NCBI RefSeq assembly: GCF_018860635.1
Contig: NZ_JAHKPT010000021.1
Location: 590,674 to 654,673 of the forward strand
Length of the DNA stretch: 64,000 nucleotides
Origin: Aliiglaciecola lipolytica
GTDB taxonomy: Bacteria; Pseudomonadota; Gammaproteobacteria; Enterobacterales; Alteromonadaceae
Direction of reading: 5' to 3'
Below are positions 27,419 to 45,236 of the stretch, one piece after another. The notes under the pieces are model-generated. The model was not told the DNA's origin. It ran no database searches and saw only the letters and a list, made by a program, of their open reading frames with translations. The translations under genes and the position numbers were made by a program. Numbering within the stretch: the first letter of the stretch is position 1; every line of letters starts with the position of its first letter.

Positions 27419-28738
27419 TTATAACGTCAACCTGAGATTAGATTGAACTTCTTCGATAAGTGTCTTGGGAACATGGTGTTCTTTGGCTAACTTTTGCCAT
27501 TGTGACACCTGTTCTACGACCTCATCTATGATGCGATCAATTTTTCGTTTATTAAAAATTGGACTTAACTGAGCGAAGGAATATAAATCCTTTCTATCAA
27601 AGTTATCACGCTTGCCATTTATAGACATCCAATGACTGTTGACCCATCTACTGCCTGGTTTGTAACTGTACGCTAAGTCATAGGCAGGGGCTAACGTCCA
27701 TTGTTGCTGTTGATCAAACATAAACGAAATATTTTTTGCATGATCATCGTGATTTTTGGCCACCACATTGAATACCATTCTTCTGAATATTTGTTCGGCT
27801 TCTTTAGCAGATAACTTTAAGCTTCGGGCAACGTCAAATAACTCTGCATAAGAATAGATTCCCACTTGCTTAAAACTAACGTGAGCAAGTCCATTTAATG
27901 TTTGGACGTGGACTTTGTCATTGCCGATACGATCAAATCTTTGGGTGATAAAGTGTCGTCGTTTACCTTCGTTGAGCAAATAACAGGGCATCATATCTAT
28001 TTGACTGGCCGTGGCCATTAAATAGTAAACGTATTCCATTGCCCCATAACCGGTGGGATCACCAAATGTTTCCTGGTTCTTATTGTGTTCACTTACCCCA
28101 TCAAATTTCATTAAATAATGGCTGAACCCGTCTGGCGCATTAGTTTGTCCAGAACGCACTTGGGTAAAATCTGAATTAAATGCTAAAACCGCTTTCGGCC
28201 TTGCGCCACCAGCACTCATACCAACCGACATTAGCGCCATCATCGCTTCTTTGTCCTCATAACCTTGTTGATTCAAAGATACATTAAATTTGGACCTTTG
28301 ATTGACAATGTCTTGGGCAACTTCCACGAGGTTTTCAACCTCAAGTTGCTGTGATGAGTTAAGATTTTTATGCCGGGTCGCTGGGGCAAAAGTTAGTGCG
28401 CCCATGCCGCGAGTACCTGTGTATTTTAAGCGTTGAAGAGGGGATATATCCTTTGCTGATTTCCCCTGCGAAGCAACCCATGCATTGATGACGGCATTAC
28501 CAAAATCATCGGGTAGGGAGTCAGCAACCAATCCGGGGAGGCCTTTAAATGCGGCAAAGTCGGTTTCAGGGAAAGTATAAATCTGTTTTGATAAAGGCAT
28601 TTTTAACGGTGACAATTGAATACCGGTTTTGATGAATGCCGGAGTGTACTCGAACGCGCCCAACTGTTTATCAGGATCATAGCTAACCGCACCAACTTGG
28701 TGATCCTGGTAATTCACTATGACTACCTCTTTTACCAT
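27419..28738 (-). CDS. hipA: HipA-type serine/threonine kinase toxin
   Basis: 439 aa, the length of E. coli HipA. Couple-HipA N-terminus (about 1-105), then the kinase-like lobe. The flexible P-loop with the auto-phosphorylated Ser corresponds to VGMSAGGARPKAVLAF. The catalytic Asp is in VAKNHDDHAKNISF and the metal-binding Asp in LAPAYDLAYS. HipA kinases phosphorylate aminoacyl-tRNA synthetases such as GltX and induce growth arrest. The start overlaps hipB by 7 bases, giving coupled translation. Key residues are intact, so it should be active. Confidence 0.94.
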   Translation of the reverse strand: MVKEVVIVNYQDHQVGAVSYDPDKQLGAFEYTPAFIKTGIQLSPLKMPLSKQIYTFPETDFAAFKGLPGLVADSLPDDFGNAVINAWVASQGKSAKDISPLQRLKYTGTRGMGALTFAPATRHKNLNSSQQLEVENLVEVAQDIVNQRSKFNVSLNQQGYEDKEAMMALMSVGMSAGGARPKAVLAFNSDFTQVRSGQTNAPDGFSHYLMKFDGVSEHNKNQETFGDPTGYGAMEYVYYLMATASQIDMMPCYLLNEGKRRHFITQRFDRIGNDKVHVQTLNGLAHVSFKQVGIYSYAELFDVARSLKLSAKEAEQIFRRMVFNVVAKNHDDHAKNISFMFDQQQQWTLAPAYDLAYSYKPGSRWVNSHWMSINGKRDNFDRKDLYSFAQLSPIFNKRKIDRIIDEVVEQVSQWQKLAKEHHVPKTLIEEVQSNLRLTL

Positions 28739-29046
28739 GCCGGATCACCTTTTTTACTTGCTGGATTATTACCTGATGCTCGTTGTCTTTGTTGGCCTTG
28801 CCGTTTGGCTAACTGAATGGGGGACTCGGTTGGAATAGGAATAAACAGATCCAATTGTTTGCTCAATCCCAAGGCGACTAAAATAGCTACCACTGTTTCT
28901 AATTGAGCATGACCTTTTTCCGCGCGCATAACCACCTTTCTGGAAAGGCCTGTTTTATCTGCGATGTCTTGTTGCGTTAAATCAGCATTCAGGCGGGCTT
29001 GTTTCAAACGTTCACCTAAATCGGCTACAATCTCTTTTGTTTGCAT
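28732..29046 (-). CDS. hipB: HipB-type antitoxin, XRE family
   Basis: 104 aa. A Cro/CI helix-turn-helix at about 10-65 (LKQARLNADLTQQDIADKTGLSRKVVMRAEKG) is followed by a disordered basic tail ending in DPAW. E. coli HipB also ends in a disordered tail with a terminal Trp, which contacts HipA and serves as a degradation signal, so the last residue is a meaningful match. It represses its own operon; a four-site operator array lies just upstream (29054-29194). Confidence 0.93.
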   Translation of the reverse strand: MQTKEIVADLGERLKQARLNADLTQQDIADKTGLSRKVVMRAEKGHAQLETVVAILVALGLSKQLDLFIPIPTESPIQLAKRQGQQRQRASGNNPASKKGDPAW

Positions 29047-29809: not shown

Positions 29810-30946
29810 TTATCGTTTAAAAAAATAAAATGCAGGGATTGCAGTAACCCCTTTTTCTAAAATATCGTTACCATCCGCTATATGGATTTTAGGAGTTGGA
29901 GCGAAAACATCTCCATAGGAAGCACCAGTAACAACGACTTTTTCAGATAGCGATTTCTGTAACTCAATTGGTAATCTGCCGGTAAAAACAATTGCTTCTG
30001 GATCAAGTAGACTTTGGATGGCTTTGAGTGGGAACTTCATAGTTTCAACACATGCTGTTACCCAAGATTTGATGTTAGTGTCTTGATTGGCAATCGCTGC
30101 CTGAATTTTCTCAGGAGTGGCCTCTTCCCCCCAAACAGCACTCAAATGTTTGTAAAGTGATCCCAAGTTGGGCCTTAGTTGCGATTTATCGCTACTAAAT
30201 AAGGTAGAAATTTCGCCAGCATTTCCAAAAGCACCATCGACAACCTCACCTTCAAAAACAAAACCACCACCTATATCTAGAGTAAACAGCATGAGATAGA
30301 AACTTTGCAGCGTAGCTCCTTTTTTAGTTAACGAAAAACCAATAGAGGCAGCGTTTCCGTCATTTTCTACAAAACAGTGTTGTTTGTATCGTTTTGCAAA
30401 GGTTTCTTGAAAATTAACAACAGACCAACCTTGCGGATCTTGTTGGGAACAAATACGGCCTTCTTCGTTAGTAAAAAATCCAGAAATAGATATACCTATC
30501 CCTAAAATATTAATTGAGGGATCTAACTCTGAAAATAATTGGTCGAGCATAGATAAGGCTGCTTTAATTGCTAGTTCTGCCGATAAGAATGTCCCATCTT
30601 TACAAAATCTAACGATGTTTGTGCGGTCGAGATCATCTAATAGAACTACCACTCTATCGTGTTCGAAAACCACCCCAACACTAGCAAAAACTCCGGGGAT
30701 TAACGTCAAGTAAGTAGCTGGTTGTCCTCGCTGCCCAGCGATTTTTGAGTGCTCTTCAACTATGCCAAGGGATATTAAGTGCTTAGTCAGTCTCGTTAAA
30801 GTTTGATTAGATAATCCCGTTGCCTTGGCTATTTCCGCACGAGTTGCTTTGCGGTTTCTACGAATATTTTCAATTACTTTTTTATGGCTACTATTTAGCT
30901 GTTTTTCGATGTGCGAAATGGATGTTATTTGCTGTAGCGTTTGCAA
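29810..30946 (-). CDS. ROK-family transcriptional repressor of the GlcNAc locus
   Basis: 378 aa. The N-terminal winged helix (IENIRRNRKATRAEIAKATGLSNQTLTRLTKHLISLGIVEE) is followed by a ROK sugar-kinase-like domain: DIGGGFVFEGEVVDGAFGNAGE carries the sugar/zinc-site region but the canonical GHxxxxxxGxxCxCGxxGCxE zinc motif is absent. The architecture is that of NagC/Mlc-type regulators. It is divergent from the TonB receptor that begins the GlcNAc gene cluster, with three palindromes between them. I infer that it represses the locus and senses GlcNAc or GlcNAc-6-P. Confidence 0.88.
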   Translation of the reverse strand: MQTLQQITSISHIEKQLNSSHKKVIENIRRNRKATRAEIAKATGLSNQTLTRLTKHLISLGIVEEHSKIAGQRGQPATYLTLIPGVFASVGVVFEHDRVVVLLDDLDRTNIVRFCKDGTFLSAELAIKAALSMLDQLFSELDPSINILGIGISISGFFTNEEGRICSQQDPQGWSVVNFQETFAKRYKQHCFVENDGNAASIGFSLTKKGATLQSFYLMLFTLDIGGGFVFEGEVVDGAFGNAGEISTLFSSDKSQLRPNLGSLYKHLSAVWGEEATPEKIQAAIANQDTNIKSWVTACVETMKFPLKAIQSLLDPEAIVFTGRLPIELQKSLSEKVVVTGASYGDVFAPTPKIHIADGNDILEKGVTAIPAFYFFKR

Positions 30947-31032
30947 TGTAAACCCCTTGAAGGAAGTAAATGACGAAAACCAAGAACAATTAGAAATCTA
31001 GCCCACTGTATAGAATAACAATTAGGTAACTT

Positions 31033-31051
31033 AATTACCACCTTGATAATT
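31033..31051. promoter_or_regulatory. Candidate ROK operator 1
   Basis: AATTACCA-CCT-TGATAATT, 15 of 16 arm bases match the palindrome consensus AATTACCA-N3-TGGTAATT. It lies on the regulator-proximal side of the intergenic region and could control the regulator's own promoter. A longer 10-bp inverted repeat (AACTTAATTA / TAATTAAGTT, 31028-31056) surrounds it. Confidence 0.6.
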
Positions 31052-31150
31052 AAGTTAATTGGCAGGTAAATAATACAAAACTCCAAATTAGTTATAACCT
31101 TTTGAATATTATTATTATTTTTGTAAATCCAAAATTATTTTTGAAATATT

Positions 31151-31169
31151 AAGTATTGACGTGGTAATT
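31151..31169. promoter_or_regulatory. Candidate ROK operator 2
   Basis: Right arm TGGTAATT is perfect, left arm matches 4 of 8 (12/16 overall). It lies just upstream of the -35 element of the TonB receptor promoter. Confidence 0.5.
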
Positions 31170-31174
31170 AATGG

Positions 31175-31206
31175 TTGACAATTTATTCTTGCGTGGCTAG
31201 TTTAAA
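31175..31206 (+). promoter_or_regulatory. Promoter of the TonB-receptor gene
   Basis: TTGACA at 31175-31180 is a perfect -35. The -10 is less clear: TAGTTT (17-base spacing) or TTTAAA slightly further on. Operators 2 and 3 flank it, a repressor-type layout. Confidence 0.55.
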
Positions 31207-31222
31207 TACCAGAGTGGTAATT
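31204..31222. promoter_or_regulatory. Candidate ROK operator 3
   Basis: AAATACCA-GAG-TGGTAATT, 15/16 to the palindrome consensus, placed over the likely transcription start of the TonB-receptor gene, about 37 bases before its ATG. Confidence 0.62.
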
Positions 31223-31259
31223 AATAATAAAAACACACTGTCAACATCGAGGAAAATTA

Positions 31260-33983
31260 ATGAGCAGAACAAATGTTACTCCCAGAGCAAGTAAATTCAG
31301 CAAGGTCTCGACTGCGGTAATCTTAGGATTGTTAAGTAGCGCGTCTGCTAACCTTTATGCCCAAGAGTCAAGTGAAGGTGACGTTGAAGCCATTACGATT
31401 AAAGGTGTAAGAGGTAGCCTTTTAAAATCTCTTAATCAAAAACGATTTGCAAATAAAGTGGTCGATGTCATTACCGCCGAAGATATAGGTAAGTTTCCAG
31501 AAGCTAACCTGTCTGAAGCGATTCAACGTGTACCGGGTGTCACCTTAAATCGAAACCCTACAGGTGAGGGGACTGCAATTAACTTACGTGGTCTTGGTCC
31601 TGAATTCACCTCTACTGAAGTTAATGGAATGTTAGCGGGGGGTAGTGATGGTACTCGTGGCTTCTCATTCGAAATTTTTCCAGCTGAATTATTTAACAGT
31701 GTAGAAATATCCAAGTCAGTGACTGCAGATCAAGTGGAAGGCGGCATTGCTGGAAGCGTTTCTCTGTATACGCCAGATCCGCTAGCAACCAAAGATCAAG
31801 TGCTCAATGTTTCTGTTTACAATAACTACAGTGATAATACTGGCACAAACAGCCCAAAAGCGTCAGTAGTATTTAATCAAAACTGGGATGACACTTTTGG
31901 TATCAATGCCGCATTGGTGTATTCAGATACAGATATGCAGAATAATGAAGTACGTGGCAGTAGCCATAGTCCTTTATCAGCCGTTTGGACTGGACCTGAC
32001 GTGGGCGAAGAAGGTGGTCCTACCCAAGAGCAACTTGATGCATTATATCCTCGTATTGAGAGTTTTGGTTATACTTCAGAGGAACGTGAAACCCTCGGCG
32101 CTGTATTAGGTCTGCAGTGGCGCCCTAATGATGATCTTGATATTAAAGCACGGGCACTTGTTGGTAAGATTGATGGTGATCGTGTAGAAACAATTTTAGA
32201 TGCACCCTCAGAGAGTAATATTACCGCTGTTAGTAACACTGTGATTGAAAACGGTATAGCAACTCAAGCCACATTAACTGGTGTGCAACAACGTGTTGGT
32301 GCAAGACAAGAAGCGATTGATGAAGAGGTAAACCAGTTCACTTTAAGTGCAGATTGGCACATCTCTGATAGCTTGAAATTTTCACCCTATATTGGCCACT
32401 TTAGTCGCGAAAAGACCAACAGTAATGACTTGTTTTCATTTCGCAGAATGGAAGAAGACGGCAATTTCTATCCAGCTGATGTAAGTTACATTATGCGCGA
32501 CAACTACTTAGAGTGGTCTACCCCTGATACTGATTTTGCAAGCAACCCTGAAGAATTTGTTGTTAACGTGTTCATTCGTCGTCCTCTTGAAACCAAGGAC
32601 TCAAACAATACCTTGAAGTTGGATTTTGAATACGATAACGGCGACTTGATGAAAGTTGACTTTGGTTTGCGATTTACCGACAGAGAATTGGAACAACATC
32701 AAACCAGATCTGATATCAGGGCAGAAAGCTTCTTAGCTGATGGGGTAACCCCACTAAATCGTCGCACTGATTTACCTACTTTAGCGGATGTATATACTCC
32801 ACTAGACCGTTTTAATGTAGATGGTGCAGGCTTTGCGCCATCGACGTTAATTGGTGGTGATCCTGCGCAAATTCTATCAACTTTCTTTAATGCAGATGGT
32901 TCGCCCATCGATGGTTTATACGAAGATGTAAACGAACCTTTTGAACTAATCAACAGCTTTGAATTGCAAGAACAAACCATTGCAGCCTATGCTCAAGCAA
33001 ATATTGAAGTAAGTGAAAGTGTTACCTTAAGTACTGGCTTACGTTTTGTTCGAACCATTCAAACCATTGATTCGCAAGTGACTACGGATTCGTCTGATGT
33101 AAATGCGTTCAGCCCAGTTACCTTGAAAAGCGATTATCAAGAGATTTTACCGAACATGAACGTACGTTATGCTCTTAATGACGATATGGTGGTACGTGCG
33201 GCTTACTTTAAGAGTTTAACACGACCTGCGCTAGGTGAATTAGCTGCGTTTGAAAGCTTTAACGGCATCGATGAAGGCGGCGGTCTTGGTTCACGTGGTA
33301 ACCCTGATCTGCAACCGTTTACAGCAGATAACTATGACATAGGTTTTGAGTGGTACTTTACTAGTGAAGCTGTAGCTGCGATCAATATTTTCTATAAAGA
33401 TTTAGATGGTTTCATTGATACCTCATCTACGACTGAAATTAGAGAGTTTCCTAGACAAAGTGATGGTGTAATTGTAAGTGGACCTATTATCTTTACCCAA
33501 CCTGCAAATGGCGTTGGTGCAACCATTACCGGTATTGAGTTAGCTTATCAATCTAGACTCGGATTCATCAGCGAATCCTTAGACGATTTTGGTCTGTTGG
33601 CAAACTACACAATGATTGATAGTGCCGCGCAATATTCAGACGAAGGTGACGTGCGTAATTCTGGTTTACCTGGATTGTCAGAAAGTAGTTACAACTTGGC
33701 CTTGTACTATGATGTCCCTAGCTTTAATGCGAGATTGTCTTATACATGGCGAGATGAATATTTGGTGGAATTTGCTTCAACCGCGGGTATTCCACAATGG
33801 CAAGAAGAGTATGGACAGCTTGACTTTTCCGCCAGTTACAATGTGACTGATGCACTGCAAATACAAGTGCAAGGGTTAAATCTGTTAACTGAGCAAGAAG
33901 TGAATCGTTCGGTTCAAAATACCCCGTACGATCTTGCACAAATCGATAGAAGATTTGTTATTGGTGCCAGATACTCGTTTTAA
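31260..33983 (+). CDS. TonB-dependent outer-membrane receptor of the GlcNAc locus
   Basis: 907 aa. A signal peptide (VILGLLSSASANLYAQ) is followed by a TonB-box-like EAITIKG, a plug domain with DVITAEDIGKFPEANLSEAIQRVPGVTLNR and a 22-strand barrel ending in the expected aromatic C-terminus (FVIGARYSF). The KFPExNLSEAIQRVPGV signature is that of the large carbohydrate-receptor group in Xanthomonas and Alteromonas relatives. It imports oligosaccharides using the proton motive force via TonB/ExbBD. GAGG precedes the ATG. A hairpin follows at 34000, which may reduce expression of downstream genes relative to the receptor. Confidence 0.92.
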   Translation: MSRTNVTPRASKFSKVSTAVILGLLSSASANLYAQESSEGDVEAITIKGVRGSLLKSLNQKRFANKVVDVITAEDIGKFPEANLSEAIQRVPGVTLNRNPTGEGTAINLRGLGPEFTSTEVNGMLAGGSDGTRGFSFEIFPAELFNSVEISKSVTADQVEGGIAGSVSLYTPDPLATKDQVLNVSVYNNYSDNTGTNSPKASVVFNQNWDDTFGINAALVYSDTDMQNNEVRGSSHSPLSAVWTGPDVGEEGGPTQEQLDALYPRIESFGYTSEERETLGAVLGLQWRPNDDLDIKARALVGKIDGDRVETILDAPSESNITAVSNTVIENGIATQATLTGVQQRVGARQEAIDEEVNQFTLSADWHISDSLKFSPYIGHFSREKTNSNDLFSFRRMEEDGNFYPADVSYIMRDNYLEWSTPDTDFASNPEEFVVNVFIRRPLETKDSNNTLKLDFEYDNGDLMKVDFGLRFTDRELEQHQTRSDIRAESFLADGVTPLNRRTDLPTLADVYTPLDRFNVDGAGFAPSTLIGGDPAQILSTFFNADGSPIDGLYEDVNEPFELINSFELQEQTIAAYAQANIEVSESVTLSTGLRFVRTIQTIDSQVTTDSSDVNAFSPVTLKSDYQEILPNMNVRYALNDDMVVRAAYFKSLTRPALGELAAFESFNGIDEGGGLGSRGNPDLQPFTADNYDIGFEWYFTSEAVAAINIFYKDLDGFIDTSSTTEIREFPRQSDGVIVSGPIIFTQPANGVGATITGIELAYQSRLGFISESLDDFGLLANYTMIDSAAQYSDEGDVRNSGLPGLSESSYNLALYYDVPSFNARLSYTWRDEYLVEFASTAGIPQWQEEYGQLDFSASYNVTDALQIQVQGLNLLTEQEVNRSVQNTPYDLAQIDRRFVIGARYSF

Positions 33984-33999
33984 TAACGAAAATTAGGTT

Positions 34000-34027
34000 A
34001 AGGAGCATCATAAGATGCTCCTTATTT
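34000..34027 (+). terminator. Hairpin after the TonB receptor (partial terminator)
   Basis: A perfect 10-bp stem AAGGAGCATC / GATGCTCCTT with an ATAA loop, followed only by ATTTAAG. The weak T run suggests partial termination or 3'-end stabilisation rather than a full stop. Confidence 0.65.
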
Positions 34028-34085
34028 AAGCCTACCAATCTAAACTATCAACTCTAAGCCAATATTTCTTACCGAGTGAATTATC

Positions 34086-35708
34086 ATGCCAGTGTTCGGT
34101 TTTTCAATAAGATGCTTTGTCATTGTTTGCGCATTATTGGTAAATGCGTGTTCCACTCCAGTGCAGACTAAAACTGGCTTGCCAGTAGCATTTACTGATG
34201 CAACTCAAACAGTCATTTCGCCTGGACTAAGCTACTTTAAGGTGGATAGAGGTGAGCTATCTGGATATTTTGAATTGACCAGTTCAGTGATGTCTGTAAC
34301 CGACGCTAACGCCTTAGTAGATGCATTGAACAAACATGTATCGAGACTAACGATAAATTCAAGAAGTCACAGTTTAAAACCTAAAATGATTGATCTGGTT
34401 GAACAGGCACCTGATGGCAGTGATTTAGGAAAGTTAGTTACAATTGGTCAGTTTAATACCTTAGCTGATGCACAAATTATGCAACAACAACTTGCGGCAA
34501 TTGGTTTACAAATGCGTCCTTCACACAGTACCCAACGAAGTGGCGGTATGGGTAAACAAGAAATCAGTATTCTTAAATTAGTGCCTTCTCAATACACCGG
34601 CACTCTAACGTCGTCTTTAGCTAAGCAACAAATAACAGGTGTTGAAAAAGTATCGGAAATAGCTAAAAAAAATCTAGCGGTAGCTGCCGTCAATGGTGGT
34701 TTTTTTGCATTTAATTCAAGCCAAGGGATCATTGGCGATGTGGCAGGCTTAGCAGTAATTGACGGCATATTAGTTAGTGAAGCTGTGGCCGGCAGACCTG
34801 CTTTATTAATCAACAATCAACCCTCATTATCGGTTGAAATTTTAAATAATGTGCAATCTCAAATTAGTTTAACTGTTGAGGATAAAAACTTTTATGTAGA
34901 TGGCATTAATCGTCTATCGGGTAAAATATTTAACTGTGGTTTCGGTCATCCTAAAGTTGTGGCAATACACGATTTTGTTTGTCACAAATCTAATGAAATC
35001 ATTGTTTACAATCATTATTTTGGCAATCTTCATCCGGTGTTAAGCAACCGCGAGTTTCACTTTTTCGTGGATCAAAACAATTCTGTTTATTTTAATCGTC
35101 CGGATATGTCAACTTCTTTACCTGTTGGCCACCGTCTTGTTGTTGCTTCTGGTGATTCAGTCTCACAACTCGAAAAGTTTGTATCAACAAAAACAAAGGT
35201 AGTTATTAATCAGCAGGTAACTAGTGACTCAGGTGAACTGACTTTGCGCAAAGGTATGTATGTGATTAATGGTGGACCAACACTATTAGTTGATGGCAAG
35301 CAACCTATTTCTCAACGACGTTCGCAAGGGTGGGGAGTGACCCCTGTTAAAGGTGGTACCGCTGCTATTGATCATCGAGACGATATTTCTGAAGCGTTGC
35401 CAGAGAACAATCGAATCAACTTTTACCAAAATTGGGTTTTAAAGCGCCATCCTCGTACAGCGGTGGGCGTTACTAATACAGGCGATGTATATGTAGTAGT
35501 GGTTTATGGAAGAGATCCGTTTAAAAGCATAGGGGCATCTATTACTGAAATGTCAGAGCTTATGTTGGAGTTAGGTGTTCAAAAGGCGATCAATCTAGAT
35601 GGTGGCGGTTCTAGTGTAATGGTTGTTAATGGCCAGATAACAGGAAAGCCATCGGATAGTAATGGGGAAAGGGCAGTCGCTGAAGCGTTGCTATTTACGG
35701 CGAAATAA
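34086..35708 (+). CDS. Lipoprotein phosphodiester glycosidase (NAGPA domain) with SPOR-like region
   Basis: 540 aa. Signal peptide with lipobox LVNAC gives a lipid-anchored periplasmic protein. An SPOR-like segment at about residues 105-145 (IGQFNTLADAQIMQQQLAAI) precedes the catalytic domain. That domain shows the hallmarks of the NAGPA (phosphodiester glycosidase) family: AAVNGGFFAFN, YVINGGPTLLVDG, HPRTAVGVTNTGDV and the strongest motif INLDGGGSSVMVVNGQ. The human homologue removes GlcNAc from GlcNAc-1-phospho-6-mannose. It leads a tight operon with GlcNAc kinase, deaminase, deacetylase and permease, which makes a GlcNAc-1-phosphodiester the likely substrate here. Exact glycan unknown. Confidence 0.87.
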   Translation: MPVFGFSIRCFVIVCALLVNACSTPVQTKTGLPVAFTDATQTVISPGLSYFKVDRGELSGYFELTSSVMSVTDANALVDALNKHVSRLTINSRSHSLKPKMIDLVEQAPDGSDLGKLVTIGQFNTLADAQIMQQQLAAIGLQMRPSHSTQRSGGMGKQEISILKLVPSQYTGTLTSSLAKQQITGVEKVSEIAKKNLAVAAVNGGFFAFNSSQGIIGDVAGLAVIDGILVSEAVAGRPALLINNQPSLSVEILNNVQSQISLTVEDKNFYVDGINRLSGKIFNCGFGHPKVVAIHDFVCHKSNEIIVYNHYFGNLHPVLSNREFHFFVDQNNSVYFNRPDMSTSLPVGHRLVVASGDSVSQLEKFVSTKTKVVINQQVTSDSGELTLRKGMYVINGGPTLLVDGKQPISQRRSQGWGVTPVKGGTAAIDHRDDISEALPENNRINFYQNWVLKRHPRTAVGVTNTGDVYVVVVYGRDPFKSIGASITEMSELMLELGVQKAINLDGGGSSVMVVNGQITGKPSDSNGERAVAEALLFTAK

Positions 35709-35719
35709 AAGGTTTAGAA

Positions 35720-36670
35720 GTGGTAACGGGAATAACAAATACATTGAAAAAGAACTCAACACCAGGTGAATCCCTCATTTTAGGAATTGATGGTGGTGGT
35801 ACTAAATGCAAAGCCGTTTTGATGTCACCAGATAATGTGGTTTTAGGTGAAGGTACTGCAGGGCCTGGAAACCCTGTTTATGGTATCGAGCAGGCTAAAG
35901 ACTCTATTAAAAACAGTGCGCTCATGGCATTAAAACAAGCGGGTATCAGTCCAAGTGAATTGACTAAAATTCCGGTAGGGTTAGGTCTTGCAGGCGTAAA
36001 CCTACCTAAGCATTACGACACCATTATGAAATGGCAGCATCCGTTCAGACAAATATTTTTAGCCACGGATTTATTGATTGCCAGTTTAGGTGCTCATAAC
36101 GGGGGGGATGGCGCTGTCATAGTGACAGGCACGGGATCGTGTGGGTTTTCCTATGTGAATCAAAAGTCAACGATATTAGGCGGGCATGGATTTCCCCAAG
36201 GAGACAAAGGCAGTGGGGCTTGGTTTGGTTTAAGGGCGGCAGAACAGGTTTTACTGTCACTTGATGGATTAGGCCATCCAACCAAACTCGTTAACGTTAT
36301 GCTGGAACAACTTAATGTGAAAAACAGCGAAGAGCTGACAGAAAAAGTTGCAGGTAAACCAGCATCATTTTTTGCTCAATTGGCTAATTGCGTTTTTATT
36401 GCGGCAAGTTCAAAAGATGAAATAGCAATTTCTATTGTTCAAGAGGGAGCAGGTTACATTAACGGCATGGCTGAAAAGTTAATGAATACCCATCCTCCCA
36501 GAATATCCCTTATTGGTGGTTTAGGAACCTCATTGTTCCCATGGCTAAACAAAGCAATCCAAAATGCACTATCTGCTCCCTTGTCGCCACCGGAAGTAGG
36601 GGCTGTCTATTTTGCTAGACAAAATATGAATGGCTTCCCATCAGATAAATCAATTTCAATAGCTACATAA
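35720..36670 (+). CDS. nagK: N-acetylglucosamine kinase, BadF/BadG family
   Basis: 316 aa of the ASKHA fold. The phosphate-1 motif is LGIDGGGTKCKAVL; phosphate-2 is VIVTGTGSCGFSY; and an adenosine motif is at SLIGGLGTSLFPWL. It belongs to the BadF/BcrA-like GlcNAc kinases found in marine GlcNAc clusters, not to the ROK kinase NagK of E. coli. It makes GlcNAc-6-P in the cytoplasm. The start is GTG at 35720, supported by AAGG seven bases upstream and the 11-base gap from the glycosidase gene. Confidence 0.9.
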   Translation: MVTGITNTLKKNSTPGESLILGIDGGGTKCKAVLMSPDNVVLGEGTAGPGNPVYGIEQAKDSIKNSALMALKQAGISPSELTKIPVGLGLAGVNLPKHYDTIMKWQHPFRQIFLATDLLIASLGAHNGGDGAVIVTGTGSCGFSYVNQKSTILGGHGFPQGDKGSGAWFGLRAAEQVLLSLDGLGHPTKLVNVMLEQLNVKNSEELTEKVAGKPASFFAQLANCVFIAASSKDEIAISIVQEGAGYINGMAEKLMNTHPPRISLIGGLGTSLFPWLNKAIQNALSAPLSPPEVGAVYFARQNMNGFPSDKSISIAT

Positions 36671-36683
36671 ATAAGAGTTTTAC

Positions 36684-37682
36684 ATGACACAAACAATAAT
36701 GGAAAAAGAAGCGCGACAAACCCCTAAAGTTATTCGCGAACAAATTCAGAAAAATCAAAAAACAGTCACAAACATTGCCAATAAGTTGCACCAATTCAAA
36801 CCTAAAATGGTGATGATTATTGGTCGAGGGTCGTCAGATCATGCTGGTGTGTTTGCTAAATATTTAATTGAAATTGAAGCTCAAATTCCGACCTTTGCTG
36901 CTGCACCTTCAGTTTCAAGTGTGTACAACAAACAACTGGTCTTGGATAATGCTTTAGTGATTGTTATTTCGCAGTCTGGACGCAGTCCCGATATATTAGC
37001 TCAGGCAAAGATGGCTAAAAAAGGCGGAGCATATTGCATTGCTTTGGTGAATGATGAAAGCTCGCCATTGAAAGATATTGTAGATGATGTTTTGCCTTTA
37101 AACGCGGGCAAAGAAGAGTCTGTTGCGGCAACTAAGAGCTACCTCTCAACTCTTTCCGCTCTTCTGCATTTAGTCGCAACGTGGACAAACAATCAAGGTT
37201 TACTCGATTCCCTGAATCAATTGCCTAGTTTACTTGAAGCAATCATTGATTCACCTTCACAATTAGCGCCCACAGATGTTGATAACGTCAATAACCTAGT
37301 TGTATTGGGACGGGGATTGGGTTTTGCGGTTTCTAAAGAAATAGCGTTAAAACTAAAAGAAGTCTGCAGTATTCATGCTGAGGCTTTCAGTAGCGCTGAA
37401 TTTTTGCATGGCCCCATTACTTTGATAGAGCAAGGCCTAGCAATATTAGACTGTCTGGTTCTGGACGAAAGTGAAGCTTCTCATATTGAACAAATAAACG
37501 AAGTTAAACGACGAGGGGCACAGGTTCTGCATTTACACCAGAGTAAACTAGCTGCGCATCCGCGAATAGCTCCTCTGTTAGTCTTACAACGTTTCTATAT
37601 TGATGTTGCTAAGCTTTCAACCCATCGCGGCTTAAACCCTGACGTGCCTTTGGGCTTGAATAAAGTAACCAAAACATTATGA
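36684..37682 (+). CDS. nagB-II: Glucosamine-6-phosphate deaminase, SIS type (NagB-II)
   Basis: 332 aa with two SIS domains: MIIGRGSSDHAGVFAKYL, VISQSGRSPDILAQAKMAKKGG, AATKSYLSTLSAL, and EVCSIHAEAFSSAEFLHGPI. This matches the non-homologous glucosamine-6-P deaminase first described in Shewanella rather than classical NagB. It converts GlcN-6-P to fructose-6-P and ammonia. The lack of an N-terminal glutaminase domain distinguishes it from GlmS. It overlaps nagA by 4 bases. Confidence 0.92.
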   Translation: MTQTIMEKEARQTPKVIREQIQKNQKTVTNIANKLHQFKPKMVMIIGRGSSDHAGVFAKYLIEIEAQIPTFAAAPSVSSVYNKQLVLDNALVIVISQSGRSPDILAQAKMAKKGGAYCIALVNDESSPLKDIVDDVLPLNAGKEESVAATKSYLSTLSALLHLVATWTNNQGLLDSLNQLPSLLEAIIDSPSQLAPTDVDNVNNLVVLGRGLGFAVSKEIALKLKEVCSIHAEAFSSAEFLHGPITLIEQGLAILDCLVLDESEASHIEQINEVKRRGAQVLHLHQSKLAAHPRIAPLLVLQRFYIDVAKLSTHRGLNPDVPLGLNKVTKTL

Positions 37683-38848
37683 CGCAACAAATGAGATTAC
37701 ATGCCCAAAGATTATTTGATGGACAGGCATATCATACTGATCAAGTGCTTGTGATTGAAGGCGAAGAAATCATTGCAATCGATCAGGATATTTCACAGGT
37801 TGATACGGTGCTGAGCGGGCTAGTTGCCCCAGGATTTGTAGATTTACAAGTAAACGGCGGAGGCGGGGTATTATTCAATGCTCAGCCAACCCTAGACTCG
37901 TTAAAGACCATCTTCGCCGCTCACGCCCGTTACGGTACAACAGGACTATTACCCACGGTAATTACTGATGATATCGACGTAATGAATAGGGCGGCTGACG
38001 CAGTTGCGCAAGGGATTCGTCAAAATGAGCCAGGTATCTTGGGAATTCATTTTGAAGGTCCACATATTTCCACGATTAAAAAAGGTGCCCATAGTCAACA
38101 ACATATTCGTCCGATTACAGATCAAGAGTGGACTCTGTTTAAACGTCAGGATTTAGGTAATATAGTTGTGACCTTAGCGCCAGAAGTGGTACCTGAGGGG
38201 CAAATTAAAGAGTTAGTCAGCTTAGGTGTGAAAGTTTGTATCGGGCATAGTAACGCTGACGGAATTACCACAAGCAAAGCAATACAATGTGGTGCCTCTG
38301 GATTTACCCATTTGTTTAATGCCATGTCGCCTATTTCTGCTAGAGAGCCTGGTGTAACAGGCGTTGCTTTAACATCTGAAACGACGCGTTGCGGACTCAT
38401 AGTCGATGGACATCACGTGGATGATTTAAATATTCAATTAGCGCTCAAGACGAAACCTAAAGGTGGAATCTTTTTGGTAACCGATGCGATGCCTCCAGTT
38501 GGTTCAGATGCGACGGAATTTGATTTTTTCGACCGGCAAGTAACGGTAAGAGATGGACGATTAACATCTACTACCGGAGAGTTAGCTGGTGCTGCCATCG
38601 ATATGGCATCATCGGTAAGATACTGTCATTTTAATTTGGGGATCTCTGTGGATGAGTCTATTCGCTTAGCAAGCCAATATCCTAAAGATTATTTGTCAGG
38701 CTCACCTATGCAAACCAATCCGAAAGTACAGCTTGCGCCAGGTAAAATCGCCAATTTCATTCAATTGGATGAGAAACTCGTTGTGCAGTCAACTTGGGTA
38801 AATGGTAATAAGGTGTTTTTTCAAGAAACAATGGCTAATGAGGTCTAA
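37679..38848 (+). CDS. nagA: N-acetylglucosamine-6-phosphate deacetylase
   Basis: 389 aa amidohydrolase barrel. Metal and substrate motifs: LQVNGGGG, HFEGPHIS, CIGHSNAD, THLFNAMSPI and the catalytic Asp in LVTDAMPPVG. It makes GlcN-6-P from GlcNAc-6-P. The start overlaps nagB-II (TTATGACG) and the stop lies 4 bases before the permease gene. Confidence 0.95.
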   Translation: MTQQMRLHAQRLFDGQAYHTDQVLVIEGEEIIAIDQDISQVDTVLSGLVAPGFVDLQVNGGGGVLFNAQPTLDSLKTIFAAHARYGTTGLLPTVITDDIDVMNRAADAVAQGIRQNEPGILGIHFEGPHISTIKKGAHSQQHIRPITDQEWTLFKRQDLGNIVVTLAPEVVPEGQIKELVSLGVKVCIGHSNADGITTSKAIQCGASGFTHLFNAMSPISAREPGVTGVALTSETTRCGLIVDGHHVDDLNIQLALKTKPKGGIFLVTDAMPPVGSDATEFDFFDRQVTVRDGRLTSTTGELAGAAIDMASSVRYCHFNLGISVDESIRLASQYPKDYLSGSPMQTNPKVQLAPGKIANFIQLDEKLVVQSTWVNGNKVFFQETMANEV

Positions 38849-38852
38849 CAAT

Positions 38853-40166
38853 ATGCAAACTATAACAACAAATAAAACCAGTACCCTTGTTCCAATGATC
38901 GTTGTTGGCATCTTATTTTTTATTTTTGGTTTCGTCACTTGGCTCAATGGCTCATTGATTCCATTTCTTCAATTAGTATGTGAATTAAATGAGTTTGAAG
39001 CTTTGTTCGTGACCTTTTCATTTTATATTGCGTACACAGTGATGGCCTTGCCGATGTCCATTATTCTTAAAAAAACCGGTTATCGAAACGGCATGGCGTT
39101 AGGGCTTGGGATCATGGCTGTTGGCGCACTGTTACATATACCAGCCGCTATTACTGCAAATTATGCTTTTTTCTTAGTCGCTTTGTTTGTGTTAGCTGCG
39201 GGGTTAACGATATTACAAACCGCATCTAACCCTTATATAGTTTATTTAGGACCTGTTGAAAGTGCAGCTATGCGCATTAGCATCATGGGACTGATAAACA
39301 AAAGTGCGGGTGTATTGGTGCCAATTCTGTTTACCTCTTTGATATTGTCTGACATGGGAGACTTTTCAGAACAAGCGCTTAGTGGATTGTCAGAGGTAGC
39401 CAAAGATCAGCGCCTAATGGAATTATCACATAACTTAATCGTGCCATATGTTTTAATGGCAATTGCACTCACAATATTAATCGCTCTGGTTAAATTTTCT
39501 TCATTGCCTGAAATTTCATCAAGCAATACTGAAACAGAAGAAAGCGTGAGTAAATCATCCATATTTCATTTCCCACACACAGTGTTGGGTGCAATTGCGT
39601 TATTTTTCTACGTAGGTGTAGAGGTGATTGCCGCAGATACGATTGGCCTCTATGGTTCTTCATTGGGTGTAAGCAACTTTGCTGCTTTAACCTCATTCAC
39701 TATGGTCTTTATGGTATTCGGTTATTTAATCGGTGTTAGCTGTATTCCGCGCTTTATCTCCCAAGAGCGCGCTTTACTCGGCTCAGGGATTGCTGGCTGT
39801 TTGTGTATTTTGGGTATCGTCTTGTCTTCTACACAATCCACCAGTATTGCAGATGTATTGTGGGGATGGACAGGTATTCCGGTAATTCCTAACACTATTA
39901 CGTTTGTGGCGTTAATGGGGCTGGCTCACGCGTTAGTGTGGCCATCTGTATGGCCTCTAGCATTAAAAGGACTCGGGAACTACTCGGCGCAAGGCTCAGC
40001 TCTACTGATTATGGGTATCTCTGGTGGTGCAATTTTACCTTTGTTATTTGGCAAAATCTCCCACGAAATAGGCGATCTACAGTCTGCTTACTGGATAGGT
40101 TTGCCATGTTATTTATATATTTTCTTTTACGCGATTCGTGGACACGCTATCCGCTCATGGAAGTAG
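38853..40166 (+). CDS. nagP: GlcNAc permease, MFS FucP-type
   Basis: 437 aa from the ATG at 38853, which has GAGGT about 9 bases upstream; the frame is open to 38802 inside nagA but without support. About 12 TM helices. FGFVTWLNGSLIPFLQLVCELNEFEALFVTFSFYIAY in the first two helices is characteristic of FucP-like sugar/H+ symporters, of which NagP is the GlcNAc member in Shewanella and relatives. It moves free GlcNAc from periplasm to cytoplasm, where the neighbouring kinase acts. Confidence 0.9.
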   Translation: MQTITTNKTSTLVPMIVVGILFFIFGFVTWLNGSLIPFLQLVCELNEFEALFVTFSFYIAYTVMALPMSIILKKTGYRNGMALGLGIMAVGALLHIPAAITANYAFFLVALFVLAAGLTILQTASNPYIVYLGPVESAAMRISIMGLINKSAGVLVPILFTSLILSDMGDFSEQALSGLSEVAKDQRLMELSHNLIVPYVLMAIALTILIALVKFSSLPEISSSNTETEESVSKSSIFHFPHTVLGAIALFFYVGVEVIAADTIGLYGSSLGVSNFAALTSFTMVFMVFGYLIGVSCIPRFISQERALLGSGIAGCLCILGIVLSSTQSTSIADVLWGWTGIPVIPNTITFVALMGLAHALVWPSVWPLALKGLGNYSAQGSALLIMGISGGAILPLLFGKISHEIGDLQSAYWIGLPCYLYIFFYAIRGHAIRSWK

Positions 40167-40205
40167 CACGTTAAACCTTAACTATCATTAAAAAATAGGC
40201 TCAGT

Positions 40206-41582
40206 ATGAAATGTAAAATAGGATTGCTCTCATTGTCGCTAATGCTTTTTGGCTGCAATGATCAACAACAGACAAATCAAACCATTGTGGTACCTGAAAA
40301 ACCAAAAAATATCATTATGGTTGTGGGTGATGGCATGGGCCCCGCATATATTAGTGCGTATCGATATTTTCACGATGACCCCAATACAGCAGAAATTGAG
40401 CAAACAGTTTTTGACCGCACTTTGGTGGGAATGAGTAGTACGTATCCGGCTCCTATTTCCGGATACGTGACAGACTCTGCAGCCGGTGCAACAGCGTTGT
40501 CAGCTGGGGTGAAAACCTACAACGGTGCCATTGCTATGGATGTGAACAAGCAACCGGTAACCACGGTTTTAGAAGTATCCAAACGTTTGGGAAAGAAAAC
40601 TGGAGTCGTCGTCACCAGCCAAATTAATCATGCCACTCCTGCCAGCTTTATGTCCCATAATGAAGCTCGCGGTAATTACGATGAAATAGCTGATAGTTAC
40701 GTAGATAATTACCAAATGTATGATGTTGTACTCGGTGGTGGCTGGAAATTCTTTTTGCGTGATGATAGAGACTTAGTCAGCGAGTTTACGGAACTGGGTT
40801 ATCAATATGTTGATGACTATGCAGCCCTAAACAATGTTGCAAAAGATAAACCGCTTTTGGGCTTGTTTGCTGATGTTGGCTTACCCTGGGCCTTAGATGA
40901 CACTGATGCTAATCGTTTGAAAACCATGACATCGACAGCCTTGGAGCAGCTAGAAAATGATAACGGATTTTTTATGTTGATAGAAGCGAGTCAAGTTGAT
41001 TGGGGTGGGCACAGCAATGATATAGCTGCTGCCATGGGTGAAATGCAAGATCTCGCCAATACATTAGAAATGCTTGAAGAGTATGTAGCTCAGCATCCTG
41101 ATACCTTGGTGGTGGTAACTGCTGATCACAGTACTGGTGGTATGACATTAGGTGCTAATGGAAAGTATGAATGGAAACCTAAAGTTTTACGTACAATGAA
41201 GCATTCTCCAAGTTACATTGCTGAGCAGTTGTTACAAACTGATATTACTCAACAGTCAACTTCTGATTTGCTCAATTTTACTTTGACAGAATCTGAACTT
41301 GCCTTGTTAAAAAGCAGCAAAAACATCGGTGAAGATAATCAGCCGTTATCCAGCGAGGGTAATCCCTACGCAGATGTATCCGCTGATGCGGTTAAAAAAG
41401 CGCTTTACGTCAATATTAAACACATTATTGATGCAAGAACTCTCACCGGTTGGACGACAGGCGCTCATACAGCCGTAGATGTTCCAGTATTCGCGTTTGG
41501 TAGCCACAGTGAATCGTTTGTAGGGCTAAACAACAATACTGATATTGCGAATACGGTTTTTTCATTACTTGAACACAAATAA
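40206..41582 (+). CDS. Lipoprotein alkaline phosphatase (PhoA family)
   Basis: 458 aa. The lipobox LFGC directly follows a short signal peptide. The PhoA catalytic set is visible: VVGDGMGP (metal Asp), VTDSAAGATALSAGVKT with the nucleophilic Ser, HATPASFMSHN, EASQVDWGGHSND, VTADHSTGG and GWTTGAHTAVDVPVFAFG. It hydrolyses phosphomonoesters in the periplasm. It follows nagP by 39 bases and ends before two terminators, so it is the last gene of the GlcNAc operon. I infer that it releases the phosphate left after the phosphodiester glycosidase has removed GlcNAc. Confidence 0.9.
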   Translation: MKCKIGLLSLSLMLFGCNDQQQTNQTIVVPEKPKNIIMVVGDGMGPAYISAYRYFHDDPNTAEIEQTVFDRTLVGMSSTYPAPISGYVTDSAAGATALSAGVKTYNGAIAMDVNKQPVTTVLEVSKRLGKKTGVVVTSQINHATPASFMSHNEARGNYDEIADSYVDNYQMYDVVLGGGWKFFLRDDRDLVSEFTELGYQYVDDYAALNNVAKDKPLLGLFADVGLPWALDDTDANRLKTMTSTALEQLENDNGFFMLIEASQVDWGGHSNDIAAAMGEMQDLANTLEMLEEYVAQHPDTLVVVTADHSTGGMTLGANGKYEWKPKVLRTMKHSPSYIAEQLLQTDITQQSTSDLLNFTLTESELALLKSSKNIGEDNQPLSSEGNPYADVSADAVKKALYVNIKHIIDARTLTGWTTGAHTAVDVPVFAFGSHSESFVGLNNNTDIANTVFSLLEHK

Positions 41583-41618: not shown

Positions 41619-41631
41619 TATTGAAAGGGCA

Positions 41632-41656
41632 GGGCGTGAGAGTAAACGCCCTTTTT
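41632..41656 (+). terminator. Second, tandem terminator
   Basis: GGGCGT-N8-ACGCCC followed by TTTTT, 14 bases after the first terminator. The pair isolates the GlcNAc operon from the convergent usp gene. Confidence 0.75.
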
Positions 41657-42754: not shown

Positions 42755-43657
42755 TTATTCAGCCGAAGGGCTGAGGGCTTCAAAACCATTGACTAAGTCA
42801 GAAAGCTCTTCATCAATTGCACTTTGTCTGAGTTTGTTAAATGTCTTTTGCATCTGCTCTTGTAACTCTTCGATATTTTTTTCAGCGCGTTGCATGGCGA
42901 TTAACCGACTGGCATTTTCGCTCGCGAGTGACTCAATGCAACCTTTGAAAAGTGATGTGAAAATGTATTCTTTTATCAGCGTGCTAATGGTGAGCGTATT
43001 ATTGACTAACAATTGTGGCAGACATTGATTAGGCCAAGGTAGAGAAACAAATTCGTGTTTCCACTTTTGGTCAATGGGTAATATTCGCTGAAAACAGGGG
43101 GCATAGTTAGGTTTATCTAGGGTACGATTGAAAAACAGGTAGACCTCTTTGAGCTGATTGGTTTTTTGTTGGTGTTCAATTTCCAACAAAATTTCAGATA
43201 CAAAAGAAGTAATGCTTTCTATTGAATTAGGCAGTGAAAACTGTTTTCCAAGTGGTGCATTTACGCCTTCTAGCAAAGATTGAATTCGTTCACCGGCGGT
43301 CCAAATAACTTGCGCTGCGCCGAAGTCTTTCCGTTTTGAATTTAAAAAGTCTACTAAAATATCATTAAATTGCCCCACTAATCCTTGATCTGAGCCAATT
43401 ACAATTATGCCTATTTGGGTTTTATGATCTGATGGTTTAGATACTTTATCTGTTGTTGGGTAGTCACTTTTGTCGGTATTTAGAAAATAAGCCACTAGTC
43501 CTAATTGCACAGTTCGATAATAATCATCAAGTGAAAGCACGGCGTTTTCATATTGGTTGATATTGGCGGCAGCCATAGCTTTCATTGTTCTAACAACTGA
43601 TTTTAAATCAGTTGCACTTGCAATTTTACGTTGTAAATCGCTATTCGATTCACTCAT
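42755..43657 (-). CDS. atpG: N-type ATPase gamma subunit
   Basis: 300 aa from the ATG at 43655-43657 (MSESNSDLQRKIASATDLKSVVRTMKAMAAANI), where the conserved gamma N-terminal helix begins; the frame is open upstream inside atpA. The C-terminal helix (SRLIAMQRAEKNIEELQEQMQKTFNKLRQ) is the other half of the coiled-coil shaft. It is divergent from housekeeping AtpG in the middle part, as expected for N-ATPases. It is last in the atpDCQRBEFAG operon, 1 base after atpA. Confidence 0.92.
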   Translation of the reverse strand: MSESNSDLQRKIASATDLKSVVRTMKAMAAANINQYENAVLSLDDYYRTVQLGLVAYFLNTDKSDYPTTDKVSKPSDHKTQIGIIVIGSDQGLVGQFNDILVDFLNSKRKDFGAAQVIWTAGERIQSLLEGVNAPLGKQFSLPNSIESITSFVSEILLEIEHQQKTNQLKEVYLFFNRTLDKPNYAPCFQRILPIDQKWKHEFVSLPWPNQCLPQLLVNNTLTISTLIKEYIFTSLFKGCIESLASENASRLIAMQRAEKNIEELQEQMQKTFNKLRQSAIDEELSDLVNGFEALSPSAE

Positions 43658-43658
43658 A

Positions 43659-45236
43659 TTAAGCTTCGCCAGTGACAGTGCTTTGGTCAATAGCAGAGTC
43701 AGTATTTGTATGGAAAGGTTCAAGCACCTCTTTAAACATTGCAAAGATAAGGTTTTGTTCATCTTTATTAAGGTCGTTGCTTAATTCTAAGTTGTTCAGA
43801 ATATCCTGACTGAGGGTATTTATTCCTTTCACTACCGCATCTTGTGCCTCTTGGATATGTTCTAACGAAATGGTGTCAAAGAAATGATTTGTCAGGGCTA
43901 AGAGCACAACAATTTGTGCCGACACTGCTAGCGGTGACGATTCAGGTTGTTTAAGACAGGCACGAATGCGTTTTCCGTGCTCAATAGTCGCCAAACTATT
44001 TTCGTCTAGGCGTGCACCAAAACGGGCAAATGATTCCAACTCTTCAAATTGTGCATACTCTAATTTTAACGTACCTGAAACGGCTTTGAATCCAGCGCGT
44101 TGGGCTTTTCCGCCTACTCTGGAAACTGATTTTCCTACATCTACTGCCGGTAAAACCCCTAAATCAAATAATTTAGGAGATAAGTAAATTTGTCCGTCGG
44201 TGATTGAAATTAGGTTTGTGGGGATATAAGCCGACATATTTTGTTCTTCGGTTTCGATTATGGGTAAAGCGGTAAGAGAGCCGCCTCCATTTTCTTGATT
44301 TAAATGGGTAGAGCGTTCAAGTAATCTTGAGTGCAGATAAAAAATGTCGCCTGGAAATGCCTCTCTTCCTGGTGGTCTGCGTAGCAATAAAGACAACTCC
44401 CGATAGGAACGAGCATGTCGAGTTAAATCATCATAAACAATTAATACGTCTTTACCCGCATGCATGAAGTACTCGCCAATACTGGTTGCAGCATAGGGCG
44501 CGATATAATCTAAGCCTGGTGGATCATTACCCTCAGTGACCATTACAACCGTATAATCGAGGGCATTATGCTGTTTTAATGTGGCGATAGTTTTTGCAAT
44601 CGAAGATGACTTTTGGGCGATTGCACAGTAGATACATATTACATTTTTGTCTTGCTGATTTAATATGGTATCAATGGCGATGGAGGTTTTTCCGGTTTGC
44701 CGATCGCCCATAATTAATTCCCTTTGCCCGCGTCCAACGGGGAGTAGGGCATCGAGTACCTTAATTCCGGTTTGTAATGGTTCTGTAACTGGTAAGCGTG
44801 ACATGATCTCTGGTGCTGGACGCTCAATAGGTAAGCGTGGCGTTTGTGCAAGTTGACCTTTGCCATCTACGGCATGACCTAGAGGATTAATGACACGCCC
44901 CAATAGGTGTTCGCCCACTACAATGTCCATTACTCGGCCAGTTCGCTGAACTTGGTCACCCACGCTTAATTGACAATAGTCACCTAACAATACTACGCCA
45001 ACCTCATTTTCATCTAGATTAAACGCAATGCCGAAGATATTATTTGGAAAAAGTACTAATTCCTCAAAGCCAACACCTGGTAGGCCAGTAACCGATGCGA
45101 TACCTTGGGACACACTTTCAACAATGCCTATTTCCTGAAGCACAAAATTGATATTCGCATCACCATTGGATTGTTTTAGTTGTGCAAACAGTGAGTCATA
45201 GTTTTGCTTTAAACTAGGCTGAGGATCCGGCTTCAT
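43659..45236 (-). CDS. atpA: N-type ATPase alpha subunit
   Basis: 525 aa from the ATG at 45234-45236, selected because GGAG lies 7 bases upstream; the frame extends into the b-subunit gene. P-loop GDRQTGKTSIA, and the alpha-specific SVSRVGGKAQ region and FARFGARLDENS are present. Non-catalytic nucleotide-binding subunit of the F1 head. It starts 13 bases after the b subunit. Confidence 0.95.
   Translation of the reverse strand: MKPDPQPSLKQNYDSLFAQLKQSNGDANINFVLQEIGIVESVSQGIASVTGLPGVGFEELVLFPNNIFGIAFNLDENEVGVVLLGDYCQLSVGDQVQRTGRVMDIVVGEHLLGRVINPLGHAVDGKGQLAQTPRLPIERPAPEIMSRLPVTEPLQTGIKVLDALLPVGRGQRELIMGDRQTGKTSIAIDTILNQQDKNVICIYCAIAQKSSSIAKTIATLKQHNALDYTVVMVTEGNDPPGLDYIAPYAATSIGEYFMHAGKDVLIVYDDLTRHARSYRELSLLLRRPPGREAFPGDIFYLHSRLLERSTHLNQENGGGSLTALPIIETEEQNMSAYIPTNLISITDGQIYLSPKLFDLGVLPAVDVGKSVSRVGGKAQRAGFKAVSGTLKLEYAQFEELESFARFGARLDENSLATIEHGKRIRACLKQPESSPLAVSAQIVVLLALTNHFFDTISLEHIQEAQDAVVKGINTLSQDILNNLELSNDLNKDEQNLIFAMFKEVLEPFHTNTDSAIDQSTVTGEA

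Follow-up and report, generated by a model that had tools for sequence, protein, structure and literature searches.

Organization of the locus

We analysed a 64,000-nucleotide stretch of the Aliiglaciecola lipolytica genome (G000:C1:590674-654673, referred to as "the window", within which gene positions are counted) and describe in it a putative operon for the use of N-acetylglucosamine (GlcNAc). Besides the nag genes for GlcNAc catabolism, it carries a gene for a lipoprotein with a NAGPA domain and a gene for an alkaline phosphatase. Proteins of the window were scored against Pfam and NCBIfam profiles with their curated cut-offs.

Seven genes lie head to tail on the forward strand. The first, tbdr (31260-33983), encodes a TonB-dependent outer-membrane receptor (TIGR01782, 616 bits; cut-off 310) and is followed after 102 bp by nagpa (34086-35708), the product of which has a SPOR-like N-terminal domain and, at residues 351-537, the NAGPA domain (PF09992, 113.7 bits; cut-off 25). 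Downstream are nagK (35720-36670), encoding N-acetylglucosamine kinase (equivalog NF046058, 419.3 bits; cut-off 370); nagB-II (36684-37682), encoding a glucosamine-6-phosphate deaminase with a SIS domain (equivalog NF046059, 546.3 bits; cut-off 430); nagA (37679-38848), encoding GlcNAc-6-phosphate deacetylase (TIGR00221, 247 bits; cut-off 225.65), which is under the threshold of the narrower NF008371 (260.8 of 483 bits); a gene for a sugar permease of the major facilitator superfamily (MFS) (38802-40166); and phoA (40206-41582), encoding a lipoprotein alkaline phosphatase of the PhoA family (PF00245, 317.9 bits; cut-off 24.4). This phosphatase falls short of the equivalog for E. coli PhoA (NF007810, 173.4 of 540 bits). 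A lipobox-like motif is present in both it and the NAGPA protein. From nagpa through phoA, the successive intergenic distances are 11, 13, -4, -47 and 39 bp. The permease is called NagP-like because its best match, NF046060, reached 507.7 bits, short of the cut-off of 625; the alignment begins at residue 25, and the true start of the protein is probably one of the later ATGs. Divergent from the operon, on the reverse strand, lies a gene for a ROK-family transcriptional regulator (29810-30946) with a helix-turn-helix (HTH) domain (PF13412, 30.3 bits) and a ROK domain (PF00480, 58.5 bits).

All seven genes had been placed at these positions in an earlier reading of the sequence (the original prediction), and the profiles agree with the identities given there. 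The extent proposed at that time, 31260-41582, covers the genes correctly but leaves out the divergent regulator, and the full set of catabolic functions that it claimed holds for NagK, NagB-II and NagA, with the permease being NagP-like only.

Distribution and inheritance of the block

NAGPA homologues were sought at E 1e-5 in 395 genomes sampled from the family Alteromonadaceae and were found in nine. Seven of the nine (the window genome G000 and G436, G395, G451, G565, G554 and G413) carry a block of ROK, TonB receptor, NAGPA, nagK and nagP genes, so the co-occurrence of NAGPA with nag genes on which the original prediction was built recurs within the family. These genomes represent six species in three genera, G436 being of the same species as the window genome. 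The NAGPA gene sits between the receptor gene and nagK in all seven, and the ROK gene adjoins the block in the six other genomes as well. Receptor orthologues (74-100% identical) are present in exactly these seven genomes of the 395, the next relatives, in G341, G345, G374 and G402, being 42-43% identical. Chance adjacency of the genes was rejected on account of the same block in six other genomes, and the seven genes are a recurrent, locally regulated and co-inherited unit.

As the pathway for free GlcNAc is complete without NAGPA and PhoA, these two proteins might be incidental passengers of an ordinary nag operon. We consider this highly improbable, since the block has been retained in six species of three genera while NAGPA identity falls to about 40%, and since G451 and G565 retain NAGPA and PhoA in a block that contains neither nagB-II nor nagA.

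The two remaining NAGPA-positive genomes lack the block. G341 has the order SSF transporter-ROK-NAGPA-TonB-PhoD, and G296 encodes a shorter NAGPA protein next to an amino-acid kinase. An order-level sample of 295 genomes yielded three NAGPA matches at 1e-10, the window's own included. A genome from another family of the order (G154, L021:614-11354) has a NAGPA gene with genes for GH3, a ROK-family protein and NagA about 4-8 kb off.

NAGPA in place of a hexosaminidase

Glycoside hydrolase (GH) profiles GH20 and GH18 were searched against genomes at E 1e-10. Neither family was found anywhere in the window genome, a result that covers these two families and not GH19, GH3 or others, and the same two were absent from G436, G395, G554 and G413. 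The absence of a chitinase or hexosaminidase noted in the original prediction therefore extends, for GH18 and GH20, from the locus to the whole genome, and an ordinary chitin nag locus was rejected for the window.

Six sampled genomes of the same genus have no NAGPA match. In five of them (G272, G368, G417, G454 and G470, the last an assembly 59% complete), nagK scored 326-368 bits and a GH20 match lay within 0.5 kb of it in every case; G337, the sixth, lacks GH20 and carries a weak nagK only (78.8 bits). Four GH20 loci of the genus (L134, L136, L138 and L139) have a TonB receptor gene upstream, followed by nagK-nagB-II-nagA-nagP. These comparisons support the notion that the NAGPA gene occupies the position held by GH20 in sister nag loci. 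In G451 and G565, GH20 is encoded at a separate site together with a further nagK, nagA and nagP, and this additional nagA may explain why their NAGPA block is without one.

The family-wide nagK and PhoA comparisons rest on the matches listed, and a further genome, G562, was found among those rows. A NagK tree of 23 rows (L141 was kept despite a stop in the translated stretch, and L145 is on a long branch) places the six NAGPA-block NagKs that it includes and both G562 copies in one group (8 of the 23 rows, 100/99). Within that group, G554 clusters closer to G413, which belongs to another genus, than to its congeners G451 and G565, a pattern suggestive of block transfer.

The window genome has other NagK-like genes. 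A second nagK-nagA pair (L133:9325-11539) has a gene for a MauG-type peroxidase a few kb away, and homologues of nagB-II and nagP were not found in the 19.9 kb read around it. A third, weaker NagK-like kinase (L163:2380-5853) has as neighbours what, as judged by eye, resemble AgaS/aldolase-type genes and TonB receptors; this is perhaps an N-acetylgalactosamine (GalNAc) locus.

The NAGPA lipoprotein

Bacterial NAGPA-domain proteins are widespread, and most of them, to our knowledge, have no known physiological role. The AlphaFold model of the window protein has a predicted local distance difference test score (pLDDT) of 82.9 and a predicted template modelling score (pTM) of 0.85. Foldseek searches with this model returned 6ozd, 5h3k, vertebrate NAGPA and 3ohg (E 2e-44 to 3e-10). 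The structure 6ozd is a full-length solved homologue over both domains (template modelling (TM) score 0.76-0.79, 24% identity). Vertebrate NAGPA structures were among the next matches, with TM scores of 0.52-0.65 by target length and 0.31-0.36 by query length, and are only 12-16% identical over the Foldseek alignments. The stretches NGGFF, RTAxG, NLDGGGS and PSD are common to the window protein and the vertebrate enzymes. The protein belongs to the family by its PF09992 score, by the fold of solved members and by these conserved stretches, and from the activity of the family in animals it would be expected to hydrolyse a GlcNAc-alpha-1-phosphodiester. As outlined in portions of PMC12419801, NAGPA frees phosphodiester-linked sugars; bacterial NAGPA domains are described there, and in portions of PMC11488536, in large cell-surface or conflict proteins, unlike the present setting.

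In a profile search the N-terminal domain matched the SPOR-type structure 1x60 weakly (E 0.00029), and the model has a beta-alpha-beta-beta-alpha-beta pattern at the N-terminus. Both are consistent with a different role, in which the SPOR-like domain would hold peptidoglycan while NAGPA cuts the GlcNAc-1-phosphate link of other bacteria's wall polymers, the operon feeding on wall debris. Full-length relatives are indeed common in Streptomyces, Arthrobacter and Bacillus-type genomes (among the best 80 of 541). However, the similarity to SPOR is weak, no peptidase, amidase or lysozyme was identified in the block by Pfam, and G413 has a NAGPA protein without the N-terminal domain while the rest of the block, except phoA, is retained. 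We therefore regard feeding on wall debris as unlikely.

The phosphatase

A PF00245 protein was found in 14 of the 15 genomes searched. In six of the seven block genomes a PhoA gene lies within the block, and each of these has at least one further copy elsewhere, the window genome having a second one. By sequence, the nearest solved structure to the PhoA of the locus is 3a52, a cold-active alkaline phosphatase. A PhoA tree of 23 rows was made, which left out two more G395 copies (contig C6), two G413 copies and the PhoAs of G436, G470, G337 and G296. The six nag-linked PhoAs that are in the tree, among them that of G562, group together and apart from the included other copies of the same genomes. 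These data support regarding the PhoA beside the nag genes as an additional paralogue.

Control of the operon

The ROK regulator is not NagC (equivalog NF047937, 47.4 of 650 bits). A palindrome, TTAAWTACCANNNTGGTAWTTAA, was read from the gaps between ROK and tbdr genes and from the nagK-tbdr gap of G562. Three operators are predicted on the forward strand upstream of tbdr. The first (31031-31053) has one mismatch to the palindrome. The second (31149-31171) is weaker, with one perfect half-site, and lies just upstream of a TTGACA (31175-31180); G395 has a counterpart of it at three mismatches. The third (31202-31224) has no mismatches and overlaps a -10-like TAGTTT (31198-31203). The pair TTGACA-17-TAGTTT, which was read by eye, is flanked by operator-like sites. 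A promoter scan did not rise above shuffled sequences (29 versus 33.4) and was set aside.

Two operator matches were found in the window versus 0.04 expected, and none of 100 shuffles contained two. In the whole genome (5.03 Mb), sites with zero or one mismatch are present only at this locus; six others have three mismatches, and the reversed pattern gave none. Two of these six were checked and both were inside open reading frames, and a wide ROK regulon was rejected. In 13 further genomes scanned, the six with the block and G562 have their best sites before the block, at 0-2 mismatches, with two additional 2-mismatch sites elsewhere in G565. Five of the six remaining genomes have 3-mismatch sites only, and G368 has one at two mismatches. 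The presence of the regulator gene together with likely operators looks like sugar control.

The tbdr-nagpa gap (33984-34085) contains, by folding, a strong hairpin with an 11-bp stem (33999-34024, forward strand), and a hairpin is present in the same gap of all five other loci folded, with a different stem sequence in four of them and the same stem in G395. This would fit unequal expression of the receptor and the downstream genes. A terminator-like hairpin followed by TTTT (41631-41652, forward strand) lies 48 bp past phoA; the region has 15 sites of this kind versus 11.3 in shuffles, so that they are not significant as a class.

Beyond the operon, genes for three ATP synthase subunits (gamma, alpha and A) lie on the reverse strand at 42755-47101, and by eye a frame resembling b is situated between them; they possibly encode an alternative F-type ATPase. 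On the other side, a HipA-like protein and a small HTH protein form a HipBA-type pair (27419-29046).

Discussion

We favour, with modest confidence, the view that this is a ROK-controlled operon for GlcNAc use, in which a NAGPA phosphodiester glycosidase stands in the place of a hexosaminidase and frees GlcNAc from a GlcNAc-1-phosphodiester, after which PhoA removes the phosphate. For the chemical bond, the glycan and the ligand of the regulator, we infer the following. To judge from its family and linkage, the TonB receptor would carry an oligosaccharide bearing GlcNAc-phosphate across the outer membrane. The membrane-anchored NAGPA protein, acting as its family does in animals, would then cut GlcNAc-alpha-1-P-R to free GlcNAc and R-phosphate, and the lipoprotein PhoA might take the phosphate off R to give inorganic phosphate and R-OH. 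The NagP-like permease would import the GlcNAc, which NagK, NagA and NagB-II would convert to fructose-6-phosphate by the established pathway of these families. The ROK protein presumably represses at the conserved sites of the tbdr promoter and could be released by GlcNAc or GlcNAc-6-phosphate.

The broader claim is that the operon is dedicated to the uptake and use of glycans bearing GlcNAc-1-phosphodiesters, with a homologue of the uncovering enzyme replacing the hexosaminidase and a co-inherited phosphatase, such that one operon supplies carbon, nitrogen and phosphorus; we regard it as evenly poised between true and false. The original prediction had offered such combined scavenging. Of it, the recurrent, locally regulated unit, the NAGPA gene in the place of GH20 and the extra PhoA paralogue are supported; a GlcNAc-1-phosphodiester as the bond cut, the glycan and a phosphorus-gathering purpose are putative. 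Phosphorus scavenging is possible, although no regulatory feature pointing to it was seen.

For the PHO box, a consensus in its E. coli form gave four matches at three mismatches in the window versus 4.85 expected; none was before phoA or tbdr, and one, at 38592, was inside nagA. As this is not above chance, phosphate-starvation control was rejected.

A number of observations weigh against the view that we favour. The operators were found in the very regions from which their consensus had been built, so that their presence there is by construction, although the restriction of good sites to this locus does not follow from it. At three mismatches, the site totals of several genomes equal or fall below those of the reversed control (G562, 6 versus 10; G565, 7 versus 7; G454, 4 versus 4). 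The GH20 loci L143 and L147, of G451 and G565, yielded no nagB-II homologue, and the deaminase of these genomes was not located. The group of nag-linked PhoAs is moderately supported (87/86) and contains a long branch, L017, and the block of G413 has NAGPA without phoA.

The remaining points come from G562 and from NAGPA relatives elsewhere. G562 has ROK, TonB receptor, nagK and phoA genes without NAGPA (L149:9549-16473); its ROK protein is 66% identical to that of the window, its TonB receptor differs (25%), and the nagK from its GH20 locus groups with those of the NAGPA blocks. This arrangement indicates that PhoA goes with the nagK/ROK lineage also in the absence of NAGPA, that its role need not depend on NAGPA, and that a strict order of NAGPA and then PhoA is weakened. 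PhoA of G562 alone could free GlcNAc from a phosphomonoester, perhaps as part of a GlcNAc-phosphomonoester system, and the arrangement fits the theme of phosphorylated GlcNAc.

For relatives in other named genomes, the best 80 of 541 were scanned, with flanks of up to 10 kb on each side, some shorter. They are mostly from Actinomycetota, with Bacillota and others. In none of these 80 loci did the flank contain nagK, nagA, nagP or phoA, so a general link between NAGPA and nag genes across bacteria was rejected; NAGPA is not a nag enzyme in general, and among the loci examined the link is an arrangement of the Alteromonadaceae. The original prediction had named conservation of the enzyme without nag genes elsewhere as evidence against itself, and this is in part what was found, here and in the two of nine family genomes without the block. 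Two Bacteroidota loci, L023 and L024, were dismissed as nag-linked, since SusD adjoins NAGPA and no nag matches were present, and a SIS deaminase-like gene adjacent to NAGPA in L082 (Acidobacteriota) was too weak to be used (220.9 bits, below the NagB-II cut-off of 430). A second NAGPA arrangement, with SSF transporter, ROK, NAGPA and TonB genes, was seen in L019:6064-15292 and L031:6349-14261, with proteins 38-45% alike and PhoD in L019.

Such clusters, in G341 and in Eilatimonas (L031), have no adjoining nag genes and count among the points against our view. Together with G562, where ROK, TonB, nagK and phoA do without NAGPA, they would suit an enzyme that cuts the phosphodiester of a different sugar, the nag genes handling GlcNAc freed otherwise, either from elsewhere in that glycan or from phosphomonoesters by PhoA alone. 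Yet NAGPA lies between the receptor and nagK in the window and six other genomes, and no GH18 or GH20 that could free GlcNAc was found in the window genome (other glycosidase families were outside the search). We judge a different sugar to be quite unlikely.

In Flaviramulus (L023:9079-11584), the beginning of the NAGPA frame overlaps with a nucleoside-phosphorylase-superfamily gene (PF01048, 9079-9987), and SusD lies ahead of it; this is perhaps a nucleotide-sugar system, and it likewise tells against a glycan bearing GlcNAc-1-phosphodiesters. The human uncovering enzyme (UCE), which uncovers GlcNAc-P-mannose, also splits uridine diphosphate-GlcNAc (UDP-GlcNAc) into UDP and GlcNAc, according to excerpts of PMC12024695, and nucleotide sugars are thus a possible substrate of the window protein. 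The substrate might then be a sugar linked by pyrophosphate to a nucleotide or a lipid, for example UDP-GlcNAc from lysed cells, from which NAGPA would give GlcNAc and UDP, and PhoA would strip UDP to uridine and phosphate. The adjacency of PhoA suits removal of the released phosphates. A nucleotide sugar is about 600 Da. A dedicated TonB receptor suits a larger ligand, however, and Pfam and NCBIfam named no nucleosidase, nucleoside transporter or nucleotidase in the window block. A substrate of this kind is rather unlikely in our opinion.

If GlcNAc-1-phosphodiesters are indeed the substrate, phosphoglycans may be food for these bacteria, and the family may yield new uncovering enzymes, for which there is demand in the production of mannose-6-phosphate glycoproteins (PMC12024695, in part). 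The neighbourhood gives bacterial NAGPA a testable role, the release of nutrients from phosphate-linked amino sugars. The product would be GlcNAc and the likely partner PhoA; the regulator comes with candidate operators, and GH20-type sister loci within the genus offer natural controls. In the open-licence PMC literature we found no description of phosphoglycans as a nutrient, nor of this gene combination, the latter a weak absence given that scope.

Comparison with known systems

The GlcNAc pathway of Shewanella, which serves for GlcNAc and chitin, comprises NagK, NagB-II, NagA, NagP, committed TonB-type transporters and a LacI-family regulator, NagR (PMC2996990, in excerpt). The window operon is similar in following a route that is not based on the phosphotransferase system (PTS), with an MFS permease, a kinase, a deacetylase, a second-type deaminase and a TonB-type outer-membrane transporter; its NagK, NagB-II and NagA pass the thresholds of that pathway, and its permease does not pass as the NagP equivalog. 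It differs in having a ROK protein rather than NagR, in having NAGPA and PhoA, and in a genome without GH18 or GH20. Descriptions of the NagC, NagR and NagQ regulons and of the Shewanella pathway, in the portions of PMC5343134 and PMC2996990 available, do not mention NAGPA or PhoA. E. coli-type NagC is likewise a ROK regulator of nag genes (same sources, same portions), whereas the window protein scores far below its equivalog, and TTAAWTACCANNNTGGTAWTTAA at 0-1 mismatch is confined to a single locus.

The vertebrate uncovering enzyme (6pkg, 6pki, 6pku, 6pky and 6u11) has the same NAGPA fold, with NGGFF/NGGYF, RTAxG, NLDGGGS and PSD, whereas the window protein is a bacterial lipoprotein with a SPOR-like N-terminal domain and is distant in sequence. 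BPSS2145 (6ozd), titled a putative exported protein with no function named, matches both domains over the full length. The chitin-type loci of the same genus (L134, L136, L138 and L139) share the upstream receptor and the nag gene order, but GH20 adjoins nagK there, no PhoA or NAGPA homologue is present in the 19.9 kb read, and their receptors are 26-29% and their nag proteins 43-58% identical to those of the window.

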